This document shows positions 9,428-63,925 of a stretch of DNA of 64,000 bases, one piece after another. Below the pieces are notes generated by a model. That model did no database searches. It was not told the origin of the DNA and worked only from the letters and a program-made list of their open reading frames with translations. Source of the stretch: Pseudarthrobacter sp. NIBRBAC000502772 (lineage in GTDB: Bacteria > Actinomycetota > Actinomycetes > Actinomycetales > Micrococcaceae); assembly GCF_006517235.1 (NCBI RefSeq), contig NZ_CP041188.1, positions 1,612,001 through 1,676,000 on the forward strand, in the 5' to 3' direction. The position numbers and the translations under genes were made by a program. Each line of letters starts with the position of its first letter. Position 1 is the stretch's first letter.

Positions 9428-9449
9428 CGGGTGGTCCCCACCTCGCTGG

Positions 9450-10211: not shown

Positions 10212-10276
10212 TTATTGCCCCCACAAAATAAAGCATTGATGATGCGAAAGTGCTCGCCGAGCGTAACCCAGTAGCC

Positions 10277-10324
10277 TGATGCAAAAGGCAGGGCGACGGA
10301 GGCAATTCTGACCGCCCTGCATCA
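10277..10324. promoter_or_regulatory. Long imperfect hairpin upstream of the excalibur gene
   Basis: TGATGC (10277) and GCAGGGCG (10288-10295) pair with CGCCCTGC (10313-10320) and ATCA. They form an extended interrupted stem about 70-110 bp upstream of the start at 10211. It could be a terminator for leftward transcription from the debris region or a leader structure; sequence alone does not decide. Confidence 0.35.
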
Positions 10325-10584
10325 AGGCCTCCGCAAGTTCTTCCCAGCTTTGGCGCAGGAACACTCACCACTGAAGACTTCGCGTTCTTCCCTTCAGCCG
10401 GCACATAGTTTGCGGGGTGACTTTCGAGGAAGGCGCTGCCCGACGGGCATGCGCATGTATAGCCCGCCGGGGTTGGCGTCGTCGACGCTCGCGGTGGCTG
10501 TCTCGGAGTCACTTGCTAACGCGGCTAAGGGAACGTGCCACAGATTGTCCTCCCAGGCCCAATATCTCGTTCGGGAGCGTCGTA

Positions 10585-10645
10585 CCGGGGTTTCGACAGG
10601 CTCCACCACCGCGGGTTTCGACGGTTTCGACAGGCTCAACCACCG
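10585..10645. repeat. Dispersed intergenic repeat, two tandem copies
   Basis: Two copies of the TTTCGACAGGCTCAACCACC unit (first copy with CTCC) stand in tandem, directly next to a phoD 3'-end remnant. The same unit occurs at nine other places in the window, and its left flank CGTACCGGGG recurs at 52190. Confidence 0.85.
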
Positions 10646-10654
10646 ATAAGACCC

Positions 10655-10772
10655 GGTAGCCGTCCTGGATCGCGAAGGAGGCCTTAGTGCTGATGGGGGA
10701 TCCCGGCGTCGTGACGTAGTCCAGCGTCCGGAAGTCGGCGGTGAGGGCGTCCTGGGCGGTGAGGGCGTCCTG
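10655..10772 (-). pseudogene. phoD 3'-end remnant
   Basis: The last roughly 30 codons of phoD are recognisable by near-identity to 28665-28760 (ALTADFRTLDYVTTPGSPIS, then FAIQD). The upstream edge carries an 18-bp tandem duplication (10737-10754 and 10755-10772). There is no N-terminal coding sequence. It abuts the dispersed repeat just as the intact phoD does. Confidence 0.85.
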
Positions 10773-10899
10773 TCAGCCGGTTGGCTGGGCAGCTTGGTTG
10801 TCCTTGCTACCGGCTACGCTGCCATTGTCTTCTTTGCCCACCGTCCGCTCCAAAGCCCGCGCCGACCGGTTCCCTAGGGTCCGTGCGCACCGGCATTGG

Positions 10900-28632: not shown

Positions 28633-28650
28633 ACAGGCTCAACCACCGAC
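28633..28650. repeat. Dispersed repeat, single copy, overlapping the phoD 3' end
   Basis: ACAGGCTCAACCACCGA stands between the convergent genes and supplies the last Gly codons and TGA stop of phoD. Confidence 0.8.
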
Positions 28651-30225
28651 CAGTCCCGGGACTCCGTCTTGGATCGCGAAGGTGGCCTTCGTGCTGACGG
28701 GGGATCCCGGCGTCGTGACGTAGTCCAGGACCCGGAAGTCGGCGGTGAGCGCGTCCTTGGTGATCTTGGTGTTCACGTAGCCGCGGTTGTCGTTGTAGAA
28801 CTTCAGGTGCGGGTTCCAGGCCATGACGGGATCCACCGTTGAGCCGGTGCCGTTGCCGGTGGAGCTGATGGACGTGCACACCAGTTCGGAGCCGACGACG
28901 GGGGAGGCCGGGTCCCTGTAGTCGACCTTGATGTCGTTGGCCCAGTTGCGGTGCACGTCGCCGGTGAGTACGACGGCGTTGCGGACGTTCGCGTCCACCC
29001 AGCCCTGGGAGATGCGGCGGCGGGAGGCGGCGTAGCCGTCCCACCCGTCCATGGAGACGTCGTCGATCTCGGGGGCCTTGTTGCGGTCCTTTTCGGCGAA
29101 GAAGACCTGCTGGCCCAGGATGTCCCAGCGCTGGGTGGAGTTCTTGAAGCCGTCCAGCAGCCACTTCTCCTGCTCGGCGCCGGTGATGGTGCGGTCCTCG
29201 GCCAGGCGCTCGGTGACGTTCTTCTTCCAGCCGTCCCCGGCCAGCTGGTCGTCCCGGTACTGCCGGGTGTCCATCATGTGGAAGTTGGCCAGCTGGCCCC
29301 ACTGGATGGTGCGGTAGATCTTCATGTCGACCCCGGCCGGCACGGACGAGGCCCGGAGGGGCATGTTCTCGTAGTACGCCTGGAACGCGGCGGTGCGGCG
29401 CTGCCGGAACCGCTCGGTGGTGTCGTTCAGCTGCCCGGCGTCCTTGTTCTCCGGGATCTCGTCCGCCCAGTTGTTGTCCACCTCGTGGTCATCCCACACC
29501 ACCAGCCACGGCGCGACCGCGTGCGCGGCCTGCAGGTCAGCGTCGGACTTGTACTGCGCGTGCCGCTGCCGGTACCCGGCGAGGCTGGAAGTCTCGGGGC
29601 CCTGGTGGTCGCGCGGGTTGCCGCCGCCGATCACGTAGCTGTCCTTCTTGTACTCGTAGATGTAGTCGCCCAGGTGCAGCACCAGGTCCGGGTGGTCCTG
29701 GGCCAGCCGCGAGTAGGCGGTGAAGTAGCCGTGCTCGTACTGCGAGCAGCTGGCGAACGCCATGGCCAGCGCCGCCGGCGTCTCGTGCGGCGCCGGGCTG
29801 GTGAGGGTGCGGCCCACCACGCTGATGTGCTTACCCGTGCGGAACCGGTAGAAGTACTCGCGCCCCGGGCGGAGGCCTTTGATTTCCACGTGCACCGAGT
29901 GGGCGGTTTCGATCCGGGCATTCTCGACGCCGCGGGCTACTACGGTGCGCATGCCGGCGTCTTCAGCCACTTCCCACGCCACCGCGATGTTGCGGGAGGG
30001 CATGCCACCCAGGCCGTCCTCGGCGATCGGGTCCAGTGCCAGCCGGGTCCAGATCACAAAGCCGTCCGGCCAGGGCTCGCCGGAGGCGATTCCCAGCAGG
30101 AACGGATCGGTGCGGAGACCGGCGTCGTCCGCTGTTGAAACGGCGACGGCGGCACCCGGCCAGGCGGCGACGAGCCCGGCCCCGAGGCCGGCGGAAAGGA
30201 GGGATCTGCGTGAAATGTTGTCCAT
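28639..30225 (-). CDS. phoD: Alkaline phosphatase D, Tat-exported
   Basis: 528 residues, the usual PhoD size. A twin-arginine leader (SRRSLLSAGLGAGLVAA) precedes the PhoD N-terminal domain (FLLGIASGEPWPDGFVIWTR). The metallo-esterase core follows: FASCSQYEHGYFTAY, then LVLHLGDYIYEY, then WDDHEVDNNW, then NAVVLTGDVHRNWAND. These hold the Fe/Ca ligands of the family. It hydrolyses phosphate mono- and diesters outside the cell. Three PHO-box-like units lie 30-62 bp upstream of the start, implying phosphate-starvation control. The dispersed repeat supplies the stop. Five partial copies of this gene exist in the window. Confidence 0.95.
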   Translation of the reverse strand: MDNISRRSLLSAGLGAGLVAAWPGAAVAVSTADDAGLRTDPFLLGIASGEPWPDGFVIWTRLALDPIAEDGLGGMPSRNIAVAWEVAEDAGMRTVVARGVENARIETAHSVHVEIKGLRPGREYFYRFRTGKHISVVGRTLTSPAPHETPAALAMAFASCSQYEHGYFTAYSRLAQDHPDLVLHLGDYIYEYKKDSYVIGGGNPRDHQGPETSSLAGYRQRHAQYKSDADLQAAHAVAPWLVVWDDHEVDNNWADEIPENKDAGQLNDTTERFRQRRTAAFQAYYENMPLRASSVPAGVDMKIYRTIQWGQLANFHMMDTRQYRDDQLAGDGWKKNVTERLAEDRTITGAEQEKWLLDGFKNSTQRWDILGQQVFFAEKDRNKAPEIDDVSMDGWDGYAASRRRISQGWVDANVRNAVVLTGDVHRNWANDIKVDYRDPASPVVGSELVCTSISSTGNGTGSTVDPVMAWNPHLKFYNDNRGYVNTKITKDALTADFRVLDYVTTPGSPVSTKATFAIQDGVPGLVGG

Positions 30226-48762: not shown

Positions 48763-49116
48763 AATTCTTAGGCTGGAGTTCCGCGCCCGGGCGGGCCGAC
48801 GCCGTCGTCCGTCACCGCAGTTCCCCGGCTTGCGCTATTTTCCGCACCCAGTGCACATTTGTGCAGCAGCTCTGACGGGTTTTCTCAGTCCCGGCGCCGA
48901 CGCATACGCTACCCACCAGTAACAACGCTGGGTTTGAGGGTTTTGGCCTCGGGGGAGAGCGCACCGCTTTATAGGGCTTTTTTGGCGCACGTCTGTGCAA
49001 CCCGGCTCCGCAACGACGGGTGTGCTGCGTAGCATGGAAAACCCTGCCGGTACTTGATCACCCCTAGAACCATCACTACCGGCCGCCCCTGTTGGCACAT
49101 GAACAAAGAGGTTTCC
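48763..49116. other. Intergenic stretch before the lipase
   Basis: No gene is supported here. A TAGCAT at 49030 could be a -10 box for the lipase, without a convincing -35 partner. A run of T within GGGCTTTTTTGGC near 48978 has no hairpin of note before it. Confidence 0.4.
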
Positions 49117-49959
49117 ATGTCATTCGTTACCCGGGCCCTGTCCGTCGCGGCTGCCGCCGTCCTCGCCACTTCCTTGGCTGCGGCTCCCGCCCAGGCGATC
49201 GAGATTTCCCCGCCAGGGGCCAACGACTGGTCCTGCAAACCAACCGCCGAGCATCCCTATCCGGTCATCCTGGTACCGGGAACGTTCGAGAGCATGGAGA
49301 AGAACTGGTCCACCCTCTCGCCGTACCTCAAGAGCGCCGGGTACTGCGTTTTCGCCCTCAACTACGGCGAGACGAATGGCGTGTATGCCACCGCACCGGT
49401 GGCCGAGTCGGCGCAGGAACTCGCCCCGTTTGTGGACGCGGTACGTGCTGCCACCGGAGCGAAGAAAGTGGACCTGGTGGGCCACAGCCAGGGCGGCATG
49501 ATGCCCCGCTACTACTTGGGCTTCCTCGGCGGGGCCAAGTACGTCCGTCAGCTCATCGGCATCGCACCCTCCAGCCACGGGACTGAAGGTGTGATTGTCC
49601 CGCCGCCGGGCTTCGTCCAGGACCCGGACTTCACCGGCTTGGGCTGTGCTGCCTGCGCCGATCAGCAGGCAGGCTCGGCGTTCATGCAGGAGCTCAATTC
49701 CATCGGCGACACCGTAGCGGGACCCTCCTACACCGTCATCTCCACGGTTTACGACGAAGTGGTCATTCCTTATAACAGCCAGTTCCTGAACGGTCCGGCC
49801 CGGCAGGTCAGCAACATCACCATCCAGGACAAGTGCCCGGCCGATGTCTTCGAACACGACCAGACGCCGAACGACGCCGTGGTGCACCAGATCGTGGCGC
49901 ATGCGCTAGGCAACCCGTCCGGCCCCGCAGACCCGGCCTACCAGCCCGCCTGCTTCTAG
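49117..49959 (+). CDS. Secreted triacylglycerol lipase/esterase (Lipase_2 type)
   Basis: 280 residues from ATG 49117 (AAAGAGG upstream). A Sec signal peptide ends APAQA. The alpha/beta-hydrolase fold shows the oxyanion segment ILVPGTFESMEKNWSTLSPY, nucleophile Ser in VDLVGHSQGGMMPRYYL, acid Asp probably in STVYDEVVIPY and His in NDAVVHQIVAHAL. Paired cysteines (C29 and C78; C177 and C180) suggest disulfides. It is a typical actinobacterial extracellular lipase acting on ester lipids. Confidence 0.92.
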   Translation: MSFVTRALSVAAAAVLATSLAAAPAQAIEISPPGANDWSCKPTAEHPYPVILVPGTFESMEKNWSTLSPYLKSAGYCVFALNYGETNGVYATAPVAESAQELAPFVDAVRAATGAKKVDLVGHSQGGMMPRYYLGFLGGAKYVRQLIGIAPSSHGTEGVIVPPPGFVQDPDFTGLGCAACADQQAGSAFMQELNSIGDTVAGPSYTVISTVYDEVVIPYNSQFLNGPARQVSNITIQDKCPADVFEHDQTPNDAVVHQIVAHALGNPSGPADPAYQPACF

Positions 49960-50546: not shown

Positions 50547-51018
50547 TTACCCCCGCGCCTGCAGCCCCGGCACTCCGTCCTGGATCGCGAAGGAGGCCTT
50601 GGTTGAAACGGGGGCGCCCGGCGTCGTGACGTAGTCCAGAACCCGGAAGTCGGCGGTGAGCGCGTCCTTGGTGATGCGTGTGTTTACGTAGCCGCGGTTG
50701 TCGTTGTAGAACTTCAGGTGCGGGTTCCAGGCCATCACCGGATCCGTGGCGGAGCCGTCGCCGTCGCCGTCGCCGTCACCGTTGGAAGTGATGGAAGTGC
50801 AGACCAGTTCGGAGCCGACCACGGGGGCGGCGGGGTCCTTGTAGTCGATCTTGAGGTCGCGGGCCCAGTTGCCGTGCACGTCGCCGGTGAGGACCACGGC
50901 GTTGCGCACGTTCGCGTCTACCCAGCCGTGGGTGATGCGGCGGCGGGAGGCGGCGTAGCCCGTCCAGCAGCCACTTTCTCCTGCTCGGCGCCGGTGATGG
51001 TGCGGTAGACCTTCAAAT
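50547..51018 (-). pseudogene. phoD ghost with two internal deletions
   Basis: The last 120 codons are nearly intact (NAVVLTGDVHGNWARDLKID through FAIQDGVPGL). Upstream pieces of phoD are fused: KVYRTI joins ITGAEQEK, which joins the YAASRRRITHGWVDAN region, out of frame in part. A GDGDGDG run (GACGGC-type repeats near 50760) is an expansion absent from the intact copy. The signal peptide and half the active site are missing. Confidence 0.85.
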
Positions 51019-51029
51019 GGCCTGGTCCG

Positions 51030-51572
51030 TCAGATCCCGGATGTGCTTCGGATCCAGGAAAGAGCGCGGTCGCGGCGGACGTCGTCATTGGCCACTGTTA
51101 GCAACCGCTCGGCGACGAGGCCTGGATCCACTAAGCCGTGCTCGAGGAGCGCCCTCACAAACAGATGGTCCTTGATCCTGCCTGCGATGAGTTTCGCGGC
51201 ACAAAGGTCGTGGGGCTCCAGACACAGCCCGCTACGTCCATTAGTGTTAGCGTTTCTGACTTTGACCAGGCGGTCCGTCCAACCGGTCGGGAGAACCGCG
51301 GTGTTCTGGCCGACTCCCTGAACATAGAAGCCGTGGGTCTCGTGGAAGTGGGACATTTCACCGATGGCGGCGTCCAGCTCCGTGGCGAGAGACTGGGCGT
51401 CATCGTCCTTCAATGGAGCAACATCGACCTCTTCTGAATGCGTCGCTTCGTCGGGCAGTTCGTCTTCTGTGAAGGACCCGAGGATCGATTGGCTGCCAAT
51501 GATGAAGACGGCATCCTGCCGGATGATTTCGGTGGCCGCACGGATAGCGTGCTCAAGGTCCCTACGCCGCAC
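51030..51572 (-). CDS. DUF6036-like nucleotidyltransferase, candidate toxin
   Basis: 180 residues. The nucleotidyltransferase motif is visible: VFIIGSQSILGSF (hGS block, about 22-34) and HSEEVDVAPL (paired acidic residues, about 46-55). Family-typical blocks HETHGFYVQGVGQNTAVLP, LVKVRNANTNGRSGLCLEPH and DLCAAKLIAGRIKDHLFVRA follow. Full length for the family. Its start overlaps the stop of the upstream HTH gene by 11 bp, so translation is coupled. Paired HTH/nucleotidyltransferase genes occur in many bacteria and resemble toxin-antitoxin or AbiE-like modules, with the transferase as likely toxin. Activity is inferred. Confidence 0.8.
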   Translation of the reverse strand: MRRRDLEHAIRAATEIIRQDAVFIIGSQSILGSFTEDELPDEATHSEEVDVAPLKDDDAQSLATELDAAIGEMSHFHETHGFYVQGVGQNTAVLPTGWTDRLVKVRNANTNGRSGLCLEPHDLCAAKLIAGRIKDHLFVRALLEHGLVDPGLVAERLLTVANDDVRRDRALSWIRSTSGI

Positions 51573-52107
51573 GAGCTGCCTTGTGAATTGCGACGAGCCG
51601 CTCTTCCTGGGAGAGCACGCCGGCGAACGGCGTCATCTGGCGAAGGTCGATACCTCGCTCGTCAGTGCCCAACATGCTCTCCACGAGCCGGTTGATGTCG
51701 CCGCCATTAACGAGAGTGTTCCACTCTGCCACCCAACCGTGTGCGTGGGCACCGCGTGTGCGTGACGCCATCCTCTGGAGGTTTGTCCGTGCCTTGCTGA
51801 GTACCGGCTGGGGATCCTCGCGGACCTTTTGAGCCACGGCCAGATGCAGCTCGTACGAGACTCGTTCTTCACGGCGTGGCAGCCGTGGCCGGCTTTCCCT
51901 GGCTTTTTCGAGCAGGCGTTGGCTCACGGAGGGACTCACTCCGATAACTTCGGCGATCTTGCGAACAGGCATGCCTTCAGCCCAGAGCGCGAAAACTGCT
52001 TCGGCGCGCCGATCGGAAGCCGCGAGCATCTCACGACGGAAATTTTCGGCTGCCGCCCCAGCATCTTTTGCTTTCCGGATGAGCTCATCCGTCATCGTAG
52101 TGAACAC
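51562..52107 (-). CDS. HTH protein paired with nucleotidyltransferase, candidate antitoxin
   Basis: 181 residues from GTG 52107. An N-terminal helix and HTH (RAEAVFALWAEGMPVRKIAE, then VIGVSPSVSQRLLEKARE) bind DNA. The C-terminal half (ELHLAVAQKVREDPQPVLSK, then WVAEWNTLVNGG, then DLRQMTPFAGVLSQEER) is the part conserved in proteins encoded beside DUF6036 transferases. The start codon lies next to a perfect palindrome containing a TAGGAT -10-like box only 7 bp upstream of GTG, so the transcript may be leaderless and self-repressed. An ATG at 52095 is an alternative start. Confidence 0.8.
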   Translation of the reverse strand: MFTTMTDELIRKAKDAGAAAENFRREMLAASDRRAEAVFALWAEGMPVRKIAEVIGVSPSVSQRLLEKARESRPRLPRREERVSYELHLAVAQKVREDPQPVLSKARTNLQRMASRTRGAHAHGWVAEWNTLVNGGDINRLVESMLGTDERGIDLRQMTPFAGVLSQEERLVAIHKAARAA

Positions 52108-52254: not shown

Positions 52255-52385
52255 GTACCCGTCCTGGATGGCGAAGGAGGCTTTGGTGCTGACGGGGGAT
52301 CCCGGCGTCGTGACGTAGTCCAGGACCCGGAAGTCGGCCGTGAGGGCGTCCTTGGTGATCTTGGTGTTCACGTAGCCGCAGGGGT
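52255..52385 (-). pseudogene. phoD 3'-end remnant
   Basis: CGYVNTKITKDALTADFRVL, then DYVTTPGSPVSTKASFAIQD match the last 44 codons of phoD almost exactly, ending in the dispersed repeat (AEPAETSGG-stop). No upstream phoD sequence follows. Confidence 0.85.
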
Positions 52386-52628
52386 TGTTGATTGTGTCGC
52401 TGTTTGCTCCGCCTACGTATCTCGCTCCGGCTACACCGCGTTGGCGCTCGCGTTCAGGATGGACAACGCCATCCATTTCCCGGTGTTGGCAATCACAGAA
52501 TGCAGCCACCAAAAAACCTCTTGCGGCGCCCATCCTGTAAGCGGAGAATGGCGTCACTGGCGGGGTTCTGTATCCTCTCCGCCGTGGATATCGGGGCTTC
52601 GCCGAAGCCCTATTTTCAGGAGATATCC

Positions 52629-53136: not shown

Positions 53137-53904
53137 TCAGTCCGGCGGTCCCTCGGCCCGTTTCCAGTGCTCCCGCAGCAGTCCGGCCAGCCGGTCAGGT
53201 TCGATCCGGTGCGGGGGATCGAAGTGGTGGCGGTCTGCGAACACCTCGAGGCGGAAATCGGAGACGACGGCGGCAAGGCGGTCGGCAACCTCGCCGTAGT
53301 CGTTCGGGTTGCTCAGACCGCCGAGAACGAACAGCACCGGCTTGGTGAACGCGGCAAGCCGGGCGCGGTCCAGGTCATACGTCTTGAACTCCTCCACGAA
53401 GGCTTTGATCCCGGCCGGCCGCTTGGCCATCCACGGCGGCGGGGGACCCTGCGGGGGTGGCGGCAGGACGACGTCGGACTTCACGCCCAGCCTCATGAAG
53501 GCGGGCATGAACTGCTCAGGCGGCAGCGATTCGAGCTGTGCGTACTGCTTCCAGAGCTCGGCGTGGGCAGGGCTCCAGTCCCAGTTCCCGGCCCAGGCGG
53601 CTTCCAAAAGGGTCAGGCTCAGCAGGTGCTCAGGGTGTTTGGCGGCAAAGGCCAGCGCCGCGGCGCCGCCGCCCGAGTAGCCCACCAGATGGAACGCCTT
53701 CCAGCCGCGGACCCCCGCCTCGCGGAGGACGCCGACGGACTCGGTGTCCAGGGTCCAGCCCGGCGGGGGAGCATCGCCCGCGTAGAGTTCCAGGTCCTTG
53801 GCCACGGCGTCGACGCCAGGTCCCAGCGCCTCAATCAGCGCACCGTAGGCAGGTTGGGCGGGGAGCACGCTCCCGGGAAGAAGGATGGCCCGAATTGGTT
53901 CCAT
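53137..53904 (-). CDS. Alpha/beta-fold hydrolase
   Basis: 255 residues. The nucleophile elbow is LVGYSGGGAAALAFAAKHPE (Ser in GYSGG). The N-terminal strand IRAILLPGSVLPAQPAYGAL supplies the oxyanion region. The acid and His candidates are VLFVLGGLSNPNDYGEVADR and VFADRHHFDPPHRIEPDRLA. Substrate unknown. A second, related gene enters the window at 63890, so the two flank the defence-rich segment. A terminator lies on each side. Confidence 0.85.
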   Translation of the reverse strand: MEPIRAILLPGSVLPAQPAYGALIEALGPGVDAVAKDLELYAGDAPPPGWTLDTESVGVLREAGVRGWKAFHLVGYSGGGAAALAFAAKHPEHLLSLTLLEAAWAGNWDWSPAHAELWKQYAQLESLPPEQFMPAFMRLGVKSDVVLPPPPQGPPPPWMAKRPAGIKAFVEEFKTYDLDRARLAAFTKPVLFVLGGLSNPNDYGEVADRLAAVVSDFRLEVFADRHHFDPPHRIEPDRLAGLLREHWKRAEGPPD

Positions 53905-54766: not shown

Positions 54767-54824
54767 CCGGTGGTCGAGCCCGCCGGGCTCAGCCGCCGAC
54801 GGTATCGGCAGGCTCGACCACCGG
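54767..54824. repeat. Dispersed repeat, inverted pair at the GGDEF gene 3' end
   Basis: CCGGTGGTCGAGCC (54767-54780) and GGCTCGACCACCGG (54811-54824) form a 14-bp perfect stem. The right arm and loop encode the last residues of the GGDEF protein (VVEPADTVGG) and its stop. Confidence 0.85.
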
Positions 54825-56132
54825 GGTTGATCCGCCGTGGATTTCGTATCGGGCCTTGCCGCCTTGCTTGGCCCGGTACATGGCTGAATCTGCCTGCCGC
54901 AGCAGCTCCGTCACGTCCGCCGTGTCCGTGGTGCGCTGCGCGACGCCCATGCTCAGCGACACCCGCAGCGACCGGTCACCGATGACGAACGGCTCGCTGA
55001 GCGCCTCATAGATCCGCTCGGCGACGGGCCCCGTGGCCGGAGTGCCGTCGTCGTTATCCACAACGACGACGGCGAACTCGTCGCCGCCCAGCCGGGCCAC
55101 CAGGTCGTGGCCGCGGACGCTGGCCCGCAGCCGCTCTGCCAGCTGCGCCAGCAGCGCGTCACCGCCCTCATGGCCCAGGGAATCGTTGACGTCCTTGAAA
55201 TCGTCGATGTCGATGAACAGCAGGCCCTCGTGCCGGGTCCGGCGGTCGCTGTCGGGTTCGAAGGATGCCAGCAGTCGCTCGGCCAGGGCTGCACGGTTGG
55301 CGAGCCCGGTGAGGTCATCGTGTGTGGCCCGGTACGTCAGGGCGTTGTGGCTGTCCTGGAGCGCGGCGGCCATCCCGTTGAAGGCCACGGTCACCTCGCC
55401 GAGTTCGTCGCGCCGGGCCACGTTCAGGCGGTGGCCGTAGTCGCCGGACTGCAGCTTCAGGACGCCCCGGCGGAGGCTGTTGACGGGCCGCATCAGGTCC
55501 TTGACCATCCGGCGCCGGAAATACAGGGTGGCGCCGATGGCCACAACGAACAGCCCGAACCGGCCAATCACCAGAAGCCCTTCAAGTTCGCGTGTGTCCA
55601 CGAGCCCCCTGTTCAGCGCCAGGAGCGAGGACTGCTGGACGGCGGCCAGTTGCGACCGCACGGTGGAGCTTGCGGCCGCGAAGGCAGCGGCATCAGCTAC
55701 ATTGCTCCCCGTGAGGTTCAGTGCCCGGTCACCCCAGAGGCCGGCCTGCTCCAGTCCCGCCTGCCAGTCCTGCTGGGCCATGGAAAGGGCTTCGGTCCGG
55801 CCTTCGTCCGCAACCGGGACGGCGGCGGCCACACGGAAGAGAGCTTCAATGTCCTGCTGCTCCAGGACAAACGCCTCCCTGTTCACGGGCGCCGCCGCCA
55901 GCAACTGGTGTCCCAGTTGCTCATGAGCCTCAAGGGCTGCGGCCAGGTCCGCGACGGTGCCGTACTCGGCCTGCAGCCGGCCGTTCGCAGCTTCCATCTC
56001 GTTCACCACGAACCGGACTCCGACGACCGTGACTGCCGCGCCGACGAACAGGGCCAGGAGCATCAGCGTGAACGCCCCGGACCATTCACGCTGCAGGCTA
56101 AAGGAGCGCAGCGTAGTGGGGGCTCTATTCAT
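54789..56132 (-). CDS. Membrane diguanylate cyclase (HAMP-GGDEF)
   Basis: 447 residues. The first helix is TLMLLALFVGAAVTVVGVRF. A helical extracytoplasmic sensor (about 45-190) follows, then a second helix (VIGRFGLFVVAIGATLYF), a HAMP domain (RRMVKDLMRPVNSLRRGVLK) and a GGDEF domain with ATHDDLTGLANRAAL, LFIDIDDFKDVNDSLGH and active-site RLGGDEFAVVVVD. The intact motif predicts c-di-GMP synthesis. No EAL domain is present. An inhibitory RxxD site is not evident (REL/RASVRGHD upstream). The dispersed repeat supplies its C-terminal ten residues. Confidence 0.92.
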   Translation of the reverse strand: MNRAPTTLRSFSLQREWSGAFTLMLLALFVGAAVTVVGVRFVVNEMEAANGRLQAEYGTVADLAAALEAHEQLGHQLLAAAPVNREAFVLEQQDIEALFRVAAAVPVADEGRTEALSMAQQDWQAGLEQAGLWGDRALNLTGSNVADAAAFAAASSTVRSQLAAVQQSSLLALNRGLVDTRELEGLLVIGRFGLFVVAIGATLYFRRRMVKDLMRPVNSLRRGVLKLQSGDYGHRLNVARRDELGEVTVAFNGMAAALQDSHNALTYRATHDDLTGLANRAALAERLLASFEPDSDRRTRHEGLLFIDIDDFKDVNDSLGHEGGDALLAQLAERLRASVRGHDLVARLGGDEFAVVVVDNDDGTPATGPVAERIYEALSEPFVIGDRSLRVSLSMGVAQRTTDTADVTELLRQADSAMYRAKQGGKARYEIHGGSTPVVEPADTVGG

Positions 56133-56189
56133 GGGCGTCCTCGGACCGGGGTGATGTTATGCCTAAATTACACGGCACTTCCTACAATC

Positions 56190-56233
56190 GGGCTTCGACA
56201 GGCTCAAACACCGGGCGTCACCGGTTTCGGCAG
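56190..56233. repeat. Dispersed repeat downstream of jetD
   Basis: GGCTTCGACAGGCTCAAACA and GGTTTCGGCAGG form a diverged tandem pair. The inner copy touches the jetD stop codon. Confidence 0.75.
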
Positions 56234-57543
56234 GACCAGTCGCCGAGTCGGCCCAGCGCCCAGTCCCAGCGGATCAGCTCTTGCTCCAGCCTGACAGCCG
56301 TCCCGAAGGCGTCATTGCGGAGGCCTTCGTACAGTGCGGACTCATCAGGTGTCAGCCTGCCAAGCGAAGCCTTCGACGGCGACGGCTCGGTCACCCATGC
56401 ATCTCGGTGTGCCAGCAGCGTGGCCTCGTCCATCATCACGCTCATCACATGCGGGTGGATCGCCCGCAGCTGGTCCAGGATCCGGAACCCGTGGGTGTCC
56501 AGATCGCCCCAGTACAGGACCTCGCGGTCGCGCAGCCACCCTGCATCCCGCAGCGACGAGAAACCATAGCCGCCGCCATAAATAGCCAGCGTGTCCTGCC
56601 TGTCGGGGAGGGCCAGAAAGTTGACGAGGTTTTCCGTGATCAGAACTTTGGTGACCGGCAGGCTCAGCGTACTGAAGGCTTCAGCGGTCACGGTCAGGTC
56701 CCGCGCCGTGCCCAGCAGTGGCACGGCAGGATCCAGCACGCGGAACCTGACCAGCTCCGGCGGATGCAGGAAGCCGTGGCCCGCGGCAAAGCGCGCCGCC
56801 GGCGTCCGGGCCGGCGTTAGCCCCAGCAGCGAACCGGGCTCAGCGGGAAAGTCCGGAAGAGAGTCCTCGTCCGGCTCAATCTCGGCGCGCACGGAATCAG
56901 CCCGCAGCGCCATGGCCAGCTCGCTGATCACCGCCCTGTGGTTCTCGATGAACTTGGTGTGCACACCGGGAAGGCTCAGCTGACGCACATAGATGCCGGG
57001 CACGGGATTGTCCTCCAGCCACAGGGCCACCCGGGCCGCTGTCAGCGCGTCAGCCCCGAGTTCCAGCAGCTTGAGCGGCCGCTTCAGCGCCCAGCCGCGG
57101 AACAAGGAGTGCAGCGAGGCCAGACTCCCGGCAAGCTCCACGAACCGGGCTGCATCCTTCGCCTTACCCACAAAGCCGATCTCGGCCTCGGCGTTTGCAA
57201 AGACCGCCGCCGCCGGAAGCTGGTTGGCCCCCACCGTGGTGCGCCCCACCTCTGCGGTTTCCAGGCTGAACGGACCCACCGCGGCGAACAACTCAGCCGC
57301 CCACGCACTCGCCGCCGCGTAGTCAGTCCGGAGCGTCGCCGCCGTCGGACGTTTCAACGGACGACGGCGGGGGTGCAGTCCGCTGGGTTCCAGTACCTCG
57401 CGGAGCAACGCGCCGCTGCCCCAGGCCTTCAGCGACTGCGCCCGCAGGTCAGCCAGTGTGGTCCAGCCCTGAGCCCGGCCCGCCTGCGCCTGGCCCGCCT
57501 GTGCCCGGCCCGGGGCGGAAGCCGAAAGCCGGTCACCCGGCAC
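56218..57543 (-). CDS. jetD: Wadjet JetD nuclease subunit (DUF3322/DUF2220)
   Basis: 441 residues. The N-terminal half matches DUF3322 (ADLRAQSLKAWGSGALLREV, then FVELAGSLASLHSLFRGWAL, then RQLSLPGVHTKFIENHRAVI). The C-terminal half is the DUF2220/Toprim-like part with the catalytic acids in VLITENLVNFLALP and YWGDLDTHGFRILDQL. In known Wadjet systems JetD is the topoisomerase VI-like nuclease that cuts plasmid DNA extruded by JetABC. The 5' end overlaps jetC by 11 bp. The N-terminal QAGQAQAGRAQ segment is low complexity, so a later start is possible. Confidence 0.93.
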   Translation of the reverse strand: MPGDRLSASAPGRAQAGQAQAGRAQGWTTLADLRAQSLKAWGSGALLREVLEPSGLHPRRRPLKRPTAATLRTDYAAASAWAAELFAAVGPFSLETAEVGRTTVGANQLPAAAVFANAEAEIGFVGKAKDAARFVELAGSLASLHSLFRGWALKRPLKLLELGADALTAARVALWLEDNPVPGIYVRQLSLPGVHTKFIENHRAVISELAMALRADSVRAEIEPDEDSLPDFPAEPGSLLGLTPARTPAARFAAGHGFLHPPELVRFRVLDPAVPLLGTARDLTVTAEAFSTLSLPVTKVLITENLVNFLALPDRQDTLAIYGGGYGFSSLRDAGWLRDREVLYWGDLDTHGFRILDQLRAIHPHVMSVMMDEATLLAHRDAWVTEPSPSKASLGRLTPDESALYEGLRNDAFGTAVRLEQELIRWDWALGRLGDWSCRNR

Positions 57544-60500
57544 GCCGGGCCCGCTCGTCCCGGTACTCCTGGATGGTCATGTTCCGCAGCTGCGAATCGT
57601 CGCCGTTGGTGTTGGCCACGAACCCCACATGGGAGACAAAGGGCTCGATCACATGGATCTTCTGCAGGGGAGTGACGATCAGCAGCTGCAGCTTCATCCG
57701 CTGGAACAGCTCCAGCCCATACCGGGCTGACTCGTCGGAGCCGCGGCCGAACGCCTCATCAATGACCACGAACCGGAAACTGCGGCCACTGCCGGCGTTC
57801 TTACCGGCACCCTTGCCGGACGCCAGCCCGAACTGGAACGCCAGGGCGGCCGCGAGAATCGTGTAGGCGAGCTTCTCCTTCTGGCCACCGGACTTGCCGC
57901 CCGAATCCGTGAAGTGTTCAAATTCCTCGCCGGTTTCGGTCCATTTTTCCGAGGCGGAGAACGTGAACCAGTTCCGGACGTCCGTGACCTTGGCGGTCCA
58001 GCGCTCGTCGAGGGTGGTGTAGCCGTCCCGGCCCCGGAACCGCTCGATCAGGCGCGCCACCTGCAGGTACTTCTGCTCGGAGTACTGGTCATCGTCGCCG
58101 ATGGTCCCCTCCGAACAGGCCCGCAGGTCCAGGCCGAACTGCCGGACGTCCAGGTCGGTGCTGTTCTGGTGCTCCAGCTGGATGTGCCGGCCGGTGTTGT
58201 ACTCAATCCCGGCCAGGGACAGGTTGATTTCGCCGATGCGGTTCACGATGTCCTGCCGGCGGCTGTCCAGGAACGCGTTGAACGCCACCACCTCGTGAAT
58301 GGTGTTCTGGTTCAGGGACTCCTTGAAGTGGGCCTCAAAGCGCGGGAGATCGTTGCTGACCAGCTGCTCCAGCAGCTTGCCGAACTCGCCGGCGGACTCC
58401 AGGGCGGCGTCAATCTCCGTGGTCTCGTTCGGGTACTTGTTCCGGAACTCGGCCATGAGCCGGACGGTCTTCTCGGCGGCCCGGGTGATCTGTTTGGACA
58501 GTGCGTCGATGGTGTCTGTCAGCCCGGACCGGACGGAGCTTTCGACGGTGCCGGTGTTTTTGTAGGTGAGCGGTTTGCCGGCGAGTTCCGCGGCGGCCAG
58601 CCTTGCGACGGCGGCCAGCACGCCGCCGTCGTCCGTCAACGGGGTCTCCCGCAAGACGTCGCGGCAGTCCTCGATCGCCTCCACGATGTCCTTGGCCGAG
58701 CCCTCGTTGGAGCCGATCCGCCGCTGGACATCATCGGCCCGCACCTGCAGGCGATCCAGCTTTCCGGTGAGCTCGGCTTCCTTCGCCGTCAGCTGCCGCA
58801 GCACATCGCTGGTGGACTCCAGCTGGGCCTTCTCCGCCTTGAGCTCCTCGATGCGGCGTGCTGTGAGCTGCCAGCTGAGCTCGGCGAAGTCCGACACCGC
58901 CCCGATGATGCCCAGCTGCTGGTTCTGCCGGCCGATGGCGCCCAGGGAATCGTTGACCCTGGACAGCTGGCCGGCCACCACGCTCAGCTGGCCCTGGACC
59001 TCGTCCTGCTCGGTACGGAAACGGCTGATCTTGTCCAGGTTGTCCCAGCCCAGGACGTAGTTCCGGCGGTCCGAGAGCTCCTGCCGGTCATCCTTCTCGT
59101 GCCGGCCGCGGCCGCCCTTGAGCTGGCCGTTGGCGGTCAGCGCCTTGGAGCGGCGGCGGAAGTCCTCCAGGGTGTCGCAGCAGAAATAGTCGAAGCGGCT
59201 GCTGAGCTCATCGAGCAGGAAATTGCGGAACGGCGTCCCCTGCTTGATGTCGATCTTCGCCGCCAGCGTGCCCGCCTCGGCCGGCTTCGGCGTGGACGAT
59301 TCGCCGATCTTCAGGTACACCAGCCGGCCGCGCAGGTTGTTGCCGTCCACCCAGCCGCTCACAGCCGCATAGTGCTCCGACGGCACCAGCAGCGACAGGG
59401 CAAAGCCGCGCAGTGTGCGTTCGGCGGCGCCTTCCCACGCCGCTTCGCCGTCGCGGACGCGCAGCAGCTCACCGGCGTACGGCAACTCTGATTCCTGGAT
59501 GCCGGTACCGTCGCAGAGCCGACGGCGGAGCTCCACCTGGGGGCGCGGCAGCAGGTTGGGACGCGCCTGCAGGCTGGTCAGCTCCGCGGCGATGTCGCTG
59601 GCGCGACCGGTGAGTACCGTGCGTGTCATGGTCAGTTCGGTGCGGGTGTCCTGCACTTCGTTGGCGGTGGCGGCGAGGTCCTTTTCGACGTCGGCGAGCC
59701 GGGCCCGGTTGGCGTCGAACTGGACGCGGTCCGCCGGGGCCTGAAGACCGAGCTCTGCCGCGGCTTCGGCATACTTTTCGAAGCGAACCCGCTGCGCCCG
59801 GGACTCCTCGCCCAGCCGCGCGGCCTCCGCCTCGATGGCGGCCAGCCGGCCGCCGCCGTTGCCGCGGATATCTTCCTTCACGGCGGCCAGGTCCAGGCGG
59901 AGCTGAGTGATTTCGGTGGCCAGTTTGCCGCTGTCCTCCTGCAGCCGGAGGCCGGTGTTCTGCAGTTCCGTCTGGTGTTCGATGCTCAGCTGCAGTTTCC
60001 GGTCCGTGAACCAGGGATGCAGCTGGTCCCGCTGTTGGCGGGCGAATTCGTCGTCGCGGCTCAGGGCGGTGTGCTGGGCGGCGCCCTCGGTGATGGGGGT
60101 GAGCAGGGCGATCTGGTCCTTGGCCCGGAGGACGGCGTCGTGGGCCTTCTTCAGGTCGTCGAAATGGTGGATGAGGTTGCCGATCCGGGCCTCGACGTCG
60201 TCTTCCTCGAGCATGTTGGTGCGCACGAAGTTGGTGATGTTCTCCACCTGCTTCATGGACACCGTGCGGTGGAACAGCTCCATGGCCTGGTTTCCGCTGA
60301 TGCCGAACTGCCGCTTGAACGCCGCCGCATACGGCTCGAACGTTTCATGGAGGGACGCACCCGCGGCACGGAGCTGCTTCTTCAGCTTCGCGGGGTCCTG
60401 GCCGAAGTTGGCGAAGTCCCCGGCGATGGACTGCTCGCCCTCCACCAGCGAGTAGAAGCGGTTGGGCTGGCCGGCTTCCTGGGTGGCCCAGAGGGTGATG

Positions 60501-60958
60501 GCAAGGGTGATTGATTTGCCCAGGACGGCATTATGGAAGACGCCCAGGACCACTGTGAGCTTGCCGGTCCCGCGCAGCGCAACTGGCTTGGAGTACTCGC
60601 CGCCGGCGCTCCGGGTGCTCTTGTGGAAACCCCGCACATACGACATCAGCGTGCGTTCCTTCTTCTGCGCACCCGCGGCCTTGTTGTACTCGATCCTGTT
60701 GGCCGGCAGCAGCAGGGTGGTGATCGCATCCACCACTGTCGACTTCCCGGAGCCGATGTCGCCGGTCAGCAGGCTGTTCGAACCGTCCAACCGGAACGTC
60801 CGCACCTCCTGGTGAAAGGTGCCCCAGTTGAGCAGCTCCAGACGGTGCAGCCGGAAGCCCGGGGGAGTGCCGGCGTCGTCCGCTTTTTCATCCAGGCTGA
60901 ACAGCATCTCCTGCTCGTCTGTCCCGCCTTTAACTGGGGTGGCCGTCTCGGTGGTCAT
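57533..60958 (-). CDS. jetC: Wadjet JetC, SMC/MukB-like ATPase
   Basis: 1141 residues. Walker A is GDIGSGKST at 66-74 and the signature SGGQKEK at 1023-1029. Walker B is FVVIDEAFGRGSDE around 1063. Long heptad-rich coils fill about 300-480 and 640-900, interrupted by a hinge-like globular region (FDYFCCDTLEDFRRRSKALT near 580-600). This is the condensin-like motor of the anti-plasmid complex. Start ATG 60958 overlaps the jetB stop by 4 bp. Confidence 0.95.
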   Translation of the reverse strand: MTTETATPVKGGTDEQEMLFSLDEKADDAGTPPGFRLHRLELLNWGTFHQEVRTFRLDGSNSLLTGDIGSGKSTVVDAITTLLLPANRIEYNKAAGAQKKERTLMSYVRGFHKSTRSAGGEYSKPVALRGTGKLTVVLGVFHNAVLGKSITLAITLWATQEAGQPNRFYSLVEGEQSIAGDFANFGQDPAKLKKQLRAAGASLHETFEPYAAAFKRQFGISGNQAMELFHRTVSMKQVENITNFVRTNMLEEDDVEARIGNLIHHFDDLKKAHDAVLRAKDQIALLTPITEGAAQHTALSRDDEFARQQRDQLHPWFTDRKLQLSIEHQTELQNTGLRLQEDSGKLATEITQLRLDLAAVKEDIRGNGGGRLAAIEAEAARLGEESRAQRVRFEKYAEAAAELGLQAPADRVQFDANRARLADVEKDLAATANEVQDTRTELTMTRTVLTGRASDIAAELTSLQARPNLLPRPQVELRRRLCDGTGIQESELPYAGELLRVRDGEAAWEGAAERTLRGFALSLLVPSEHYAAVSGWVDGNNLRGRLVYLKIGESSTPKPAEAGTLAAKIDIKQGTPFRNFLLDELSSRFDYFCCDTLEDFRRRSKALTANGQLKGGRGRHEKDDRQELSDRRNYVLGWDNLDKISRFRTEQDEVQGQLSVVAGQLSRVNDSLGAIGRQNQQLGIIGAVSDFAELSWQLTARRIEELKAEKAQLESTSDVLRQLTAKEAELTGKLDRLQVRADDVQRRIGSNEGSAKDIVEAIEDCRDVLRETPLTDDGGVLAAVARLAAAELAGKPLTYKNTGTVESSVRSGLTDTIDALSKQITRAAEKTVRLMAEFRNKYPNETTEIDAALESAGEFGKLLEQLVSNDLPRFEAHFKESLNQNTIHEVVAFNAFLDSRRQDIVNRIGEINLSLAGIEYNTGRHIQLEHQNSTDLDVRQFGLDLRACSEGTIGDDDQYSEQKYLQVARLIERFRGRDGYTTLDERWTAKVTDVRNWFTFSASEKWTETGEEFEHFTDSGGKSGGQKEKLAYTILAAALAFQFGLASGKGAGKNAGSGRSFRFVVIDEAFGRGSDESARYGLELFQRMKLQLLIVTPLQKIHVIEPFVSHVGFVANTNGDDSQLRNMTIQEYRDERARRAG

Positions 60959-61578
60959 GTGCGGTCCTCTTCCTTACTGCCGGTGACGGCTCCGCTGAGC
61001 GAGGCGCGGTAGTCAGCGAGCCGCGCGTCGAATTCCTCCAGCCACTGGGCATCCACGTAGGCCTTCAGGATCCGTGCTACTTCGTAGGTGCCCGTCTGGC
61101 CGCGGAGTTTCCGCAGGAAGCCCAGCTCCACCACCTTCTTGATGTTGGTGCTGAGCTGGTCCAGGATCCGCGCCTCGTTGCTGGATTCGGGCAGGAAAAC
61201 GGCCACCATGTCTGCGATGTCCTGCTCGGTCATGATGAGGCGCAGTTCGCTGCTGTTGGTGTCGAATTCGAGCATCCGGCCGCGGAGCAGCGCCAGGAGG
61301 AGGCTGACGTTGAAGGTGAGCGGGCGGCGGGGGATCAGCCGCGGCAGTGTGCCGTCCGGATCCTCGCGGGATTTCAGGAACGCGTAGCCCTCGGACTCGT
61401 CCAGGATCAGGTCAAGGCCCAGGACGGCCACGTAGTCGCGGACATGGGAGGACAGGCCCAGCAGCGACTGCCAGATCTTCTCGTCCGTCTCGGCGTAGAC
61501 CACGCCCTTGAAGAGCTTGGTGACGACGCCGGGAAGTTCCTCCGGCGTGTGTGTTTCGGCTGCGTCTGTGGTGGTCAT
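60955..61578 (-). CDS. jetB: Wadjet JetB (DUF4194, MukE-like)
   Basis: 207 residues of the DUF4194 family: KLFKGVVYAETDEKIWQSLL, then YAFLKSREDPDGTLPRLIPR, then RRPLTFNVSLLLALLRGRML, then VELGFLRKLRGQTGTYEVAR. It is a winged-helix kleisin-binding subunit. It overlaps jetA (61575-61578) and jetC (60955-60958) by 4 bp each, so the subunits are translationally coupled. Confidence 0.93.
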   Translation of the reverse strand: MTTTDAAETHTPEELPGVVTKLFKGVVYAETDEKIWQSLLGLSSHVRDYVAVLGLDLILDESEGYAFLKSREDPDGTLPRLIPRRPLTFNVSLLLALLRGRMLEFDTNSSELRLIMTEQDIADMVAVFLPESSNEARILDQLSTNIKKVVELGFLRKLRGQTGTYEVARILKAYVDAQWLEEFDARLADYRASLSGAVTGSKEEDRT

Positions 61579-63017
61579 GCCGGCCTCACGAAGATGATCT
61601 GTTCGACGGTGGCTTCCCGGATGCTGCCGTCCGGGAGCTGCCAGGACAACTGCTGTGACTCGTCCGGGTTAATGGACGCCCAGTCCGATTCGGTGGCGAG
61701 CTGGTAGTAGGCCACGAGCTCGGCCAGCCCCTGGGAGAGCGGATGGGCGGCCGCTACTTCGCCGAGGGTGGCCTGCTCGGCGCCGGCCAGGACGTCGTCG
61801 ATATTGGACTTCAGCCGCTCCGTGTCCACATGGAACTGGCTGAAGAGGGCGCCGGCGTCCACTTCCGTGTCGTTGGCTGCCACCACGACGTCGTCCACCA
61901 TGATCCGCCGGCTCGGCTCATACAGCGGCCGTTCGAAGGGGAGCGCGACCTCGACAGATTGAGCGGCGATCTCCGTAAAGACGCCCGACGGCGGCACCTC
62001 CCGGGTGCCCAGCGCGCCGGATTCGATGCTCCGGACGAGCTGCATGATGCGCTTGTTTTCCAGGTACACCTTGTCGTCCAGGAGCCGGCGCATCTGCTGC
62101 GAGAGCTGCCGGACAGTGGCCTGGGTCTGCTCGACGGCGGGTAGCCAGTCCTGGTGCAGATTGGTCACGGTGTGCAGGTTGTCCAGTTTGGCGAGGGCGT
62201 CGATCTGCGTGGCCCGCTGCAGCAGGTCCCGCAGTTCCGTTCGGAGCTGCGGGGACATCAGGTAGTCCCAGAAGCCCTGGAACGTTCGGCCCTGGAGGGA
62301 ACCGCTGATGTCCTGCTGGTTGGCGAAGATCGAGGCAAGGAGCTCGCCCTGGGTGCCGTCCCAGGTGGCGATCTGTTCACGGACCTGCCGGTCAAGCTTC
62401 CGGAAGTTCTGCTCCACCTCACGGAAATCGGAGAGCAGGTCCTTGGCCAGGGTGGTCAGCTGCTGGAAGTGGTCCAGGGCTTCCGGCGCAGTCATCACGC
62501 GGATGTTGCCGTCCTTGATCCGCTGCATCTCGGCGTCGATCCCGTCCCGCTGGCGCTGGAGCTCGGCGAGCCTTACCTCCGGATCGGTCTCGGACTGCTG
62601 GACCAGGGCCTTCAGGACGGCGAAGATGCTGGTCAGCCTGGACTGGGTGGCCACGAAGTCCCGCCCGCTCAGGCTCTCCACCCAGCGGACCACGTCCTCG
62701 GCGGCGGCGGTGAGATCGTAGCGCGGCTCGTCCTGGCCCGGGACGTAGTATTTCCGCAGCCAGGCCCGTTCCGGGGCCGCCCACTCATCCAGGTACTCAC
62801 CGGCCGGCCTAGGATACTTGTCCTCGCCGAAGACTTCACGGAGGCCGAACAGGACATCATCAAGGTGGTCAATGAGCTCCTGCCGGCCGATGTCCCGCTG
62901 GTTGGGTCCGGTGAAGGCCTTGATGAAGAAGCTGACGGCCAACGGGGCGTTCTGTGCGCGGAGCAGGGACCACCCTGCGTGGTTCTCACGCAGTGCGTTG
63001 ATGGCGTAGAAATCCAT
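61575..63017 (-). CDS. jetA: Wadjet JetA (DUF3375, MukF-like kleisin)
   Basis: 480 residues of the DUF3375 family: FYAINALRENHAGWSLLRAQ at the N-terminus, FIKAFTGPNQRDIGRQELID, RWVESLSGRDFVATQSRLTS and a helical middle. The conserved FQGFWDYLMSPQLRTELRDL and YEPSRRIMVDDVVVAANDTE follow. GAGGA stands before ATG 63017. It is the first gene of the operon. The upstream 128 bp hold the dispersed repeat and probably the promoter. Confidence 0.93.
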   Translation of the reverse strand: MDFYAINALRENHAGWSLLRAQNAPLAVSFFIKAFTGPNQRDIGRQELIDHLDDVLFGLREVFGEDKYPRPAGEYLDEWAAPERAWLRKYYVPGQDEPRYDLTAAAEDVVRWVESLSGRDFVATQSRLTSIFAVLKALVQQSETDPEVRLAELQRQRDGIDAEMQRIKDGNIRVMTAPEALDHFQQLTTLAKDLLSDFREVEQNFRKLDRQVREQIATWDGTQGELLASIFANQQDISGSLQGRTFQGFWDYLMSPQLRTELRDLLQRATQIDALAKLDNLHTVTNLHQDWLPAVEQTQATVRQLSQQMRRLLDDKVYLENKRIMQLVRSIESGALGTREVPPSGVFTEIAAQSVEVALPFERPLYEPSRRIMVDDVVVAANDTEVDAGALFSQFHVDTERLKSNIDDVLAGAEQATLGEVAAAHPLSQGLAELVAYYQLATESDWASINPDESQQLSWQLPDGSIREATVEQIIFVRPA

Positions 63018-63070
63018 GGCGTCCTCATGCAGGGTGCTGTTATTCCTAAGCTACACGGGGCGGTGACAGT

Positions 63071-63160
63071 GATCGAACTTGTCGTCCCCGGTTGATCGAG
63101 CCTGTCGGGATCCAGGGTTTCGACAAGCTCAACCACCGGGCGCACTCAACCACCGGGGGA
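63071..63160. repeat. Dispersed repeat cluster between jetA and vapC
   Basis: Four diverged units in both orientations (GATCGAACTTGTCG, GATCGAGCCTGTCGGGATCC, TTTCGACAAGCTCAACCACC, CTCAACCACCGG). The last provides the stop codon of vapC (SPGG-stop). The jetA promoter must lie within or beside this cluster. Confidence 0.8.
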
Positions 63161-63538
63161 TAGGACGTTCAGGCCTGCCTCGACGGCGGCAGCCAGGAGC
63201 TCAGCGTCATACGCCACCATTACGTCGGACTGCAGCCGGATGGCTGCGGCCAGATGGATGGCGTCGGCGCTTCGGAGCTTGCCGGGCAGGGCCGCCGCGT
63301 ACATAAGGTCCGAACGGGCAAGATCGACCAGGTTGATGGCTCCCAGGACCGTATTGACGGACTCGCCGGGAAATCCGCGGCGATGGGCCGCGCAATGAAG
63401 TTCCGTATAGAGGAGCATCGAAGCCACCAGCTGGTGGCCCTGGGCTGCCGCGGTTGAGAGGTAGTGGGCGGCCGCGGATGACTCTGGCTCTTCGACCACC
63501 AGCTTGAGGACAGCCGACGTTTCCAGGTAGATGATCAC
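63146..63538 (-). CDS. vapC: VapC-like PIN-domain ribonuclease toxin
   Basis: 130 residues. PIN acidic residues are in IIYLETSAVLKLVVEEPES (Glu6 replaces the commoner Asp), LYTELHCAAHRR, RSADAIHLAAAIRL and VAYDAELLAAA. It is a metal-dependent RNase of toxin-antitoxin type. ATG 63538 overlaps the antitoxin stop by 4 bp. The last codons derive from the dispersed repeat. Confidence 0.9.
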   Translation of the reverse strand: MIIYLETSAVLKLVVEEPESSAAAHYLSTAAAQGHQLVASMLLYTELHCAAHRRGFPGESVNTVLGAINLVDLARSDLMYAAALPGKLRSADAIHLAAAIRLQSDVMVAYDAELLAAAVEAGLNVLSPGG

Positions 63539-63801
63539 CGGTCCCCGCGGAGGTCAGCCAGGATCTCAGCAGTGCCGGCTTCTGACGGGACGCGCGGCAG
63601 CGTCTGGAAATCGACCGGCCCCTTGGCGGCTGGGCGGACCTGGCCCGCCAGCAGCAGCCGCTCAAAGGGTGACGCCGACGGCGGGATCAATGTAGCGGCT
63701 ATTTCGCCGTTGTTCGTGACGTCGATGGTTTCGCCGTTCTTAACGCGCTCCAGGATTTTGCTGCTCTGGTTGCGCAGCTCCCGGTGTGGGATGGTCGCCA
63801 T
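63535..63801 (-). CDS. Phd/YefM-type antitoxin of the VapC pair
   Basis: 88 residues. The N-terminal DNA-binding part is typical of Phd/YefM (IPHRELRNQSSKILERVKNG, then ETIDVTNNGEIAATLIPP). The C-terminal tail (FQTLPRVPSEAGTAEILADL) would wrap the toxin. GGAGG precedes the ATG. A short direct repeat upstream could be its operator. Confidence 0.9.
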   Translation of the reverse strand: MATIPHRELRNQSSKILERVKNGETIDVTNNGEIAATLIPPSASPFERLLLAGQVRPAAKGPVDFQTLPRVPSEAGTAEILADLRGDR

Positions 63802-63858: not shown

Positions 63859-63925
63859 GCGGGTTTCGGGAGGCTCGGTTTCGACAGGCTCAACCACCGC
63901 GGGTTTGGACAGGCTCAACCACCGC
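63859..63925. repeat. Dispersed repeat, three units
   Basis: Units GGTTTCGGGAGGCT, TTTCGACAGGCTCAACCACC and TTTGGACAGGCTCAACCACC stand in tandem and encode the C-terminal tail and stop of the hydrolase entering at the right edge. Confidence 0.85.

Follow-up and report, generated by a model that had tools for sequence, protein, structure and literature searches.

MksBEFG of C. glutamicum, a type I Wadjet system, has been reported to act on plasmids (PMC10123090), and deletion of jetABCD has been reported to raise conjugation into C. cellulovorans by about five orders of magnitude (PMC12287153). An extrusion model of Wadjet is described in PMC10586767, and one survey places Wadjet in 42% of Actinobacteria genomes (PMC10482375). 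Here, we analyzed a stretch of 64,000 nucleotides from Pseudarthrobacter sp. NIBRBAC000502772 (contig NZ_CP041188.1, positions 1,612,001–1,676,000), called the window below; the genome it belongs to, 4.80 Mb in a single contig, is designated G000. The genes at window positions 56218–63017, arranged on the minus strand in the order jetA-jetB-jetC-jetD, constitute a complete type I Wadjet operon, and a chance match is excluded. We put at about 90% the probability that the four genes form an intact type I Wadjet (JetABCD) and sit in the chromosome as an exchangeable cassette. The four genes are as follows.

61575–63017, minus strand: jetA (DUF3375, kleisin-like), 480 aa; Pfam DUF3375 447.8 bits, PADLOC JetA1 652.6 bits.
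60955–61578, minus strand: jetB (DUF4194/MukE-like), 207 aa; Pfam DUF4194 142.9 bits, PADLOC JetB1 307.7 bits.
57533–60958, minus strand: jetC (SMC/MukB-like ATPase), 1141 aa; PADLOC JetC1 1407.9 bits, PDB JetC chains 8dk2 and 8as8.
56218–57543, minus strand: jetD (DUF3322 plus JetD_C nuclease), 441 aa, GTG start; matched in Pfam, in PADLOC and in the PDB (MksG 8b7f; JetD 8q72 and 7til).

A type I Wadjet is recognized by four adjacent genes for a DUF3375 protein, a DUF4194 protein, an SMC ATPase and a DUF3322/JetD_C protein, and all four were found here. The sequence-only reading of this DNA had described a complete Wadjet operon of full-length subunits and proposed a profile search as the check; when the search was run, DUF3375, DUF4194, DUF3322/JetD_C and JetC1 were all matched. 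The Pfam cut-offs were exceeded by every listed domain of the four proteins, including AAA_29 (79.9 bits) and SbcC_Walker_B (74.2 bits) in JetC and DUF3322 (138.9 bits) and JetD_C (183.2 bits) in JetD. In PADLOC, the top models were JetA1, JetB1, JetC1 and JetD1 with near full-length coverage, and type I was favored over types II and III, as the JetD3 models reached only 16.9–17.8 bits against 435.3 bits for JetD1. An NCBIfam search of the four proteins gave no match. The gene junctions overlap by 4 bp (jetA/jetB), 4 bp (jetB/jetC) and 11 bp (jetC/jetD), in agreement with the overlaps first noted, the last value assuming the GTG start of jetD; the sole other candidate start in the first 60 codons is a TTG at codon 46. 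The G+C content of the operon resembles that of the surrounding DNA.

The motifs expected of an ATPase and a nuclease were present, as the first reading had also held. JetC contains GDIGSGKST (Walker A stretch, from residue 63), SGGQ (signature stretch, from residue 1022) and VVIDEAF (Walker B stretch, from residue 1062), and it aligns with solved JetC chains over almost its entire length. The signature and Walker B were invariant across 49 aligned rows; the Walker A columns vary because the open reading frames (ORFs) of some relatives are N-terminally short, and the motif is present in the window JetC. JetD has the TOPRIM-type acidic residues E304, D347 and D349, and these together with N305 were identical in 59/59 aligned JetD rows (rows of >300 bits and 330–560 aa, at least five of which duplicate a locus already included). 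In PDB 8q72, the residue opposite E304 in the alignment is number 248, and the molecule is named JetD(E248A).

By analogy with characterized systems, the four-gene set very probably destroys small circular plasmids. In the sequence of events taken from published Wadjet biochemistry, JetABC would load on DNA and extrude loops by using ATP hydrolysis of JetC. On a small circle, two motors would exhaust the available DNA, so that a bent segment would be offered to JetD and cut at its predicted active site (E304, D347, D349). Small plasmids would thereby be lost and the 4.8 Mb chromosome spared.

To judge from comparison with relatives, the operon is an accessory cassette, and its history is discordant with that of the genome. 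With 98% identity each, Arthrobacter sp. Soil762 and Pseudarthrobacter sp. MDT3-9 are among the nearest named relatives of JetC, which fits the Arthrobacter-like chromosome proposed at the outset. A JetC at least 78% identical to that of the window was found in 6 of 24 same-genus relatives, and a seventh, G006, carries JetABCD, but a different one. The alignment with locus L116 of relative G013 delimited a stretch missing there:

56177–63155, no strand: 6.98 kb stretch that holds the jet operon and is absent at the matching G013 site (pairwise alignment with L116).

Window positions 54832–56176 and 63156–65223 align to L116:4429–5773 and 9142–11181, respectively, whereas between 56177 and 63155 there was no alignment to L116 of 100 bases or more. 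Approximately 3.4 kb of other DNA lies between the flanks in G013, part of it similar to window 49097–49957, and G013 carries a jet operon of its own on another contig. The G000 chromosome has, in addition, a second JetABC locus (the core locus, described below), the JetC of which is 94.4, 95.5 and 95.1% identical to its counterparts in G013, G004 and G015. For the accessory JetC, that of the window operon, the corresponding values were 77.7, 77.9 and 93.7%, a discordance that is expected if the cassette has been exchanged. By tblastn, JetA, JetB, JetC and JetD were all matched in 49/49 Micrococcaceae loci found with JetC (L022–L070), the best segment covering one or more genes merely in part in L027, L045, L048, L055 and L068. 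A JetD ORF adjoins JetC in 48/48 of those loci with a JetC ORF of at least 700 aa.

Upstream of the operon lies a gene pair resembling a toxin–antitoxin module, and the left flank holds a GGDEF gene outside the Wadjet cassette.

54789–56132, minus strand: HAMP-GGDEF protein of the left flank, outside Wadjet (Pfam); aligns to G013 L116:4429–5773, where no jet operon follows.
63146–63538, minus strand: PIN-domain toxin-like protein, 130 aa, 128 bp upstream of jetA on the same strand; Pfam PIN 35.3 bits, above the cut-off.
63535–63801, minus strand: Phd/YefM-like antitoxin, 88 aa, overlapping the PIN gene by 4 bp; NCBIfam phd_fam 26.3 bits, cut-off 20.8.

The Phd-like protein was just under the Pfam cut-off (29.5 versus 29.8 bits). 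The operon is bordered on the left by the GGDEF protein, DUF4383 and an alpha/beta hydrolase, and on the right by the PIN and Phd-like proteins and, by similarity, a second alpha/beta hydrolase; past the window end, Pfam identified GH3, sugar ABC-transport and cytochrome oxidase genes.

Several observations weigh against the reading as an intact Wadjet cassette. Copies in 4 of the 49 relatives' loci look degraded, with short JetC ORFs in L045 (895 aa), L048 (1005 aa) and L055 (897 aa) and no JetC ORF of 700 aa in L068; sequencing errors could give the same picture. Relatives of JetC were also found on 17 plasmid records and one phage record (the best plasmid-borne match, 73%, being on a 1.35 Mb replicon), and jetD adjoins the JetC relative on the plasmid records of H2, H4, H6 and H12; therefore, the barrier against plasmids is not absolute. 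The degraded copies would suit an operon that is intact yet silent, a recent remnant. We find this improbable, since the dN/dS (ratio of nonsynonymous to synonymous substitution rates) of the accessory JetC, 0.07–0.26 in six pairs, and the invariant active-site residues both point to purifying selection. Still less probable, in our view highly so, is that the operon is mainly an MksBEFG-type condensin which organizes the host chromosome and removes plasmids as a side effect. JetABC is homologous to MukFEB, and P. aeruginosa MksBEF is stated to contribute to chromosome organization (PMC10123090, PMC10586767), but a close relative of the operon occurs in just 6/24 same-genus genomes, the accessory JetC has a history different from that of the core JetC, and the host also has Smc, ScpA and the separate core JetABC.

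The possibility that the operon belongs, together with the toxin–antitoxin pairs, to a mobile defence island has more in its favor than the other two, and we nevertheless regard it as unlikely. In 21/49 loci, a PIN gene, a Phd gene or both were located at most 1 kb from the operon, 14 times upstream of jetA and 7 times downstream of jetD, and on its strand in every case; the different Wadjet of G006 (L103) also has a Phd/PIN pair, at a distance of approximately 4.5 kb and on the opposite strand. This association is inflated by shared descent. No PIN or Phd relative was present within 1 kb in the other 28 loci, and PIN relatives occur in at least seven same-genus genomes (G020, G022, G001, G010, G023, G003 and G012), all of which are without a JetD_C match. 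PADLOC matched neither PIN nor Phd nor any of nine neighboring ORFs (five within the window and four just beyond, at least one of which, 49120–49902, is probably not a real gene), although not every ORF was scanned. The neighbors are mostly metabolic or of unknown kind, and no integrase or transposase family was found among those given to Pfam, which did not include every ORF. Since the tested neighbors had no PADLOC match, the term 'defence island' used by the sequence-only reading was too strong. Of the two toxin–antitoxin-like pairs that it had named, Phd/PIN is upheld (PIN by Pfam, Phd by NCBIfam) and recurs beside the operon, whereas the other is no more than toxin–antitoxin-like: its helix-turn-helix (HTH) protein (51562–52107) scored below the Pfam cut-offs and its DUF6036 nucleotidyltransferase (51030–51572) above. 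Returning to the reading of the operon as an exchangeable Wadjet cassette, Phd/PIN could possibly act as its stabilizing toxin–antitoxin partner.

The core locus lies at G000 C1:274090–279886 (L072:10091–15887) and encodes JetA (486 aa), JetB (287 aa) and JetC (1159 aa), for which the best PADLOC models were again JetA1, JetB1 and JetC1. No JetD was found near it, and the sole JetD_C match in the genome is that of the window. It is thus of the nuclease-free MksBEF type: JetABC is present with its ATPase motifs intact, and a JetD belonging to the locus is missing. JetC of the core kind was detected in 24/24 same-genus relatives. Among the 25 same-genus loci, G000 included, none had a JetD ORF beside the core JetC, and Walker A, signature and Walker B were identical in all (the alignment has 26 rows, as G000 was entered twice). 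No JetD_C match was found anywhere in the genome in 16 of the 24 relatives, and G019 has a fragment only. The dN/dS of the core JetC was 0.06–0.11 in six pairs. Because it is present in all same-genus genomes searched and has a low dN/dS, the core JetABC is more likely to manage the chromosome than to defend it.

The surroundings of the core locus are partly conserved: in 25/25 same-genus loci it lies beside a gene for an acyl-CoA dehydrogenase and an ORF of 130 aa that Pfam did not match, in 20/25 a Peripla_BP_2 gene from a cluster for siderophore-type uptake is near it, and TetR/MFS genes are beside it in some loci only. A replacement nuclease was considered, and no scanned neighbor of the core JetABC matched a nuclease family. 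When the core JetB was used as a protein query, the names visible among the best 120 matches were only Arthrobacter and Pseudarthrobacter. A JetD-less JetABC, with a JetC 40% identical to that of the core, was also seen on the 754 kb plasmid of Arthrobacter sp. ERGS1:01 (L123), where it adjoins a RecB-nuclease/helicase gene.

The two kinds of locus were surveyed in 197 genomes of the family by dividing JetA loci at a Pfam score of 400 bits, a split that was chosen after the scores had been seen; two partial JetA rows were excluded. The results showed that: (i) a same-strand JetD lay no more than 9 kb from 45 of the 46 loci of at least 400 bits, the remaining locus being 2 kb from a contig end, and (ii) JetD was beside none of the 94 loci below 400 bits, three genomes with low-class JetA alone carrying JetD_C fragments elsewhere. 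Low-class JetA was present in 13/13 sampled same-genus genomes, our own included, and the high class in 5/13. The JetA score fails as a general marker of JetD outside the family, as the JetD-less JetA of genome G034 reached 444.9 bits.

G034 is a complete genome, and its JetC relatives bear the names Brachybacterium, Devriesea, Helcobacillus and Dermabacter, which places it by named relatives in the Dermabacteraceae. ScpA was not matched in G034, nor did Smc give anything above 36 bits, whereas the same Smc model reached approximately 900 bits in G000 and G031; Smc was searched in four genomes, G034 being the one from its family. JetA, JetB and JetC of G034 are scattered across 18 kb and interspersed with siderophore-type genes, and no JetD_C match was found genome-wide in G034, the one genome of its family so searched. 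Among 40 sampled genomes of this family (G034 included), DUF3375 was found in 40, four having more than one match, and ScpA in one. About 20 kb around JetA was read in 21 of the 40 (G034 and 20 others). These stretches contained JetB in 20/21 and JetC in 11/21 (one cut at the edge); in the remaining ten, JetC is either missing or located beyond the part read, and the JetD result there covers the surroundings of JetA only. JetD was present in 1/21, that of G235, the single genome with ScpA. The JetC ATPase motifs were intact in 9/9 full-length JetD-less copies. In this family, jetA, jetB and jetC are often kilobases apart rather than in one operon (L096, L135–L154). According to one paper, nearly all actinobacteria possess Smc, ScpA and ScpB (PMC4255298). 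In the G034 family, the JetD-less JetABC appears from these gene contents to be the sole remaining SMC–kleisin complex, having replaced Smc-ScpAB.

In a tree of 26 JetC proteins, the JetD-less ones fall into three separate groups; an earlier tree without most of the G034 family had required two changes of the JetD label. The approximately unbiased (AU) test rejected a single clade of all JetD-less JetC (p = 2.8e-7) as well as a single clade of the Micrococcaceae core kind and the G034 family alone (p = 0.0015); the tested groups were named after the earlier tree. As the branches are long, the number of JetD losses is provisional, and a gain of JetD is also compatible with the trees. On balance we lean towards the view that, in the order to which the window genome belongs, type I Wadjet repeatedly lost JetD and gave rise to chromosomal condensins, with both states present in G000 and with JetABC replacing Smc-ScpAB in the G034 family, in parallel to MukBEF of enterobacteria.

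The dispersed repeats that had been noticed near the operon were confirmed: TTTCGACAGGCTCAACCACCG occurs at 53 genome sites with at most two mismatches, and a reversed control at none.

63879–63924, plus strand: two copies of the dispersed repeat, at 63879 and 63904.

Further copies with at most three mismatches are at 10591, 10625, 52199, 52224, 54803, 56193 and 63118, and elsewhere. One copy ends four bases past the jetD stop codon, and an exact copy lies within the core jetB (G000 C1:277631), where it encodes VVEPVE in the acidic tail. Two alpha/beta hydrolase genes that are paralogs and share a strand (53137–53904 and 63890–64729, the latter crossing the window end) flank GGDEF, Wadjet and Phd/PIN in the manner of long direct repeats, and recombination between them is a possible route for exchange of the cassette. 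On either side of the HTH/DUF6036 pair (51030–52107) is a copy of a segment from the 3' end of a gene for a PhoD phosphatase (50575–50706 and 52259–52390); the two copies are 85% identical and resemble scars left by an insertion or a duplication, and PhoD is matched at full length at 28639–30225. Beyond the window end, 9.5 kb with GH3, beta-galactosidase-like and sugar-transport genes (L073:1225–10746, window coordinates 65224–74745) is cleanly missing from G013 and G015, in which the flanks meet within approximately 12 and 31 bases, respectively.

For work with such strains, the window operon is one more intact actinobacterial Wadjet, which could explain their plasmid resistance, and its removal is an obvious route to making them tractable. 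How plasmid-destroying and chromosome-organizing machines are related is posed as an open question in PMC10586767, and the same review proposes that MksBEF originated by loss of JetD. An accessory JetABCD beside a core JetABC, together with a family that has JetABC only, makes the idea that a defence system becomes a condensin directly testable. The core JetABC, an older relative of the window complex without the cutting subunit, may be a defence system turned chromosome organizer, and the conversion of Wadjet complexes into nuclease-free condensins may have happened repeatedly. The two-locus pattern of JetABC and JetABCD has been tabulated for Paenarthrobacter lasiusi, and in Table 6 of that paper a JetA-JetB-JetC locus is entered under Wadjet defence (PMC11719660), a case which indicates that JetD-less JetABC loci may be labeled as Wadjet defence in annotation. 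In the open-access literature, we found no paper that describes a JetD-less JetABC as part of the Arthrobacter core, and none that reports Smc-ScpAB to have been lost in Brachybacterium.

When compared with the JetABCD complexes of known structure (PDB 8dk2/7til and 8as8/8q72), the window JetC aligns near full-length and the catalytic residues of JetD align, but the overall scores are low and the hosts differ; we take 8dk2/7til to be from P. aeruginosa PA14 and 8as8/8q72 from E. coli GF4-3. C. glutamicum MksBEFG has the same four subunits, mksF-E-B-G corresponding to jetA-B-C-D (PMC10123090), and its MksG (8b7f) is matched by the window JetD, EN and GDLD motifs included. The sequences are, however, only distantly similar (78.7 bits for JetD), and the window operon differs in being accessory, in a genome that also holds a JetD-less JetABC. 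That second, core complex embodies the same idea as P. aeruginosa MksBEF and enterobacterial MukBEF, a nuclease-free Muk/Mks complex, although it still scores as type I (DUF3375, JetA1/B1/C1) and is a locus separate from the window operon. The window operon itself is an ordinary intact type I Wadjet; the contrast between it and the core JetD-less complex, together with the apparent takeover in the sister family, is the part worth following.

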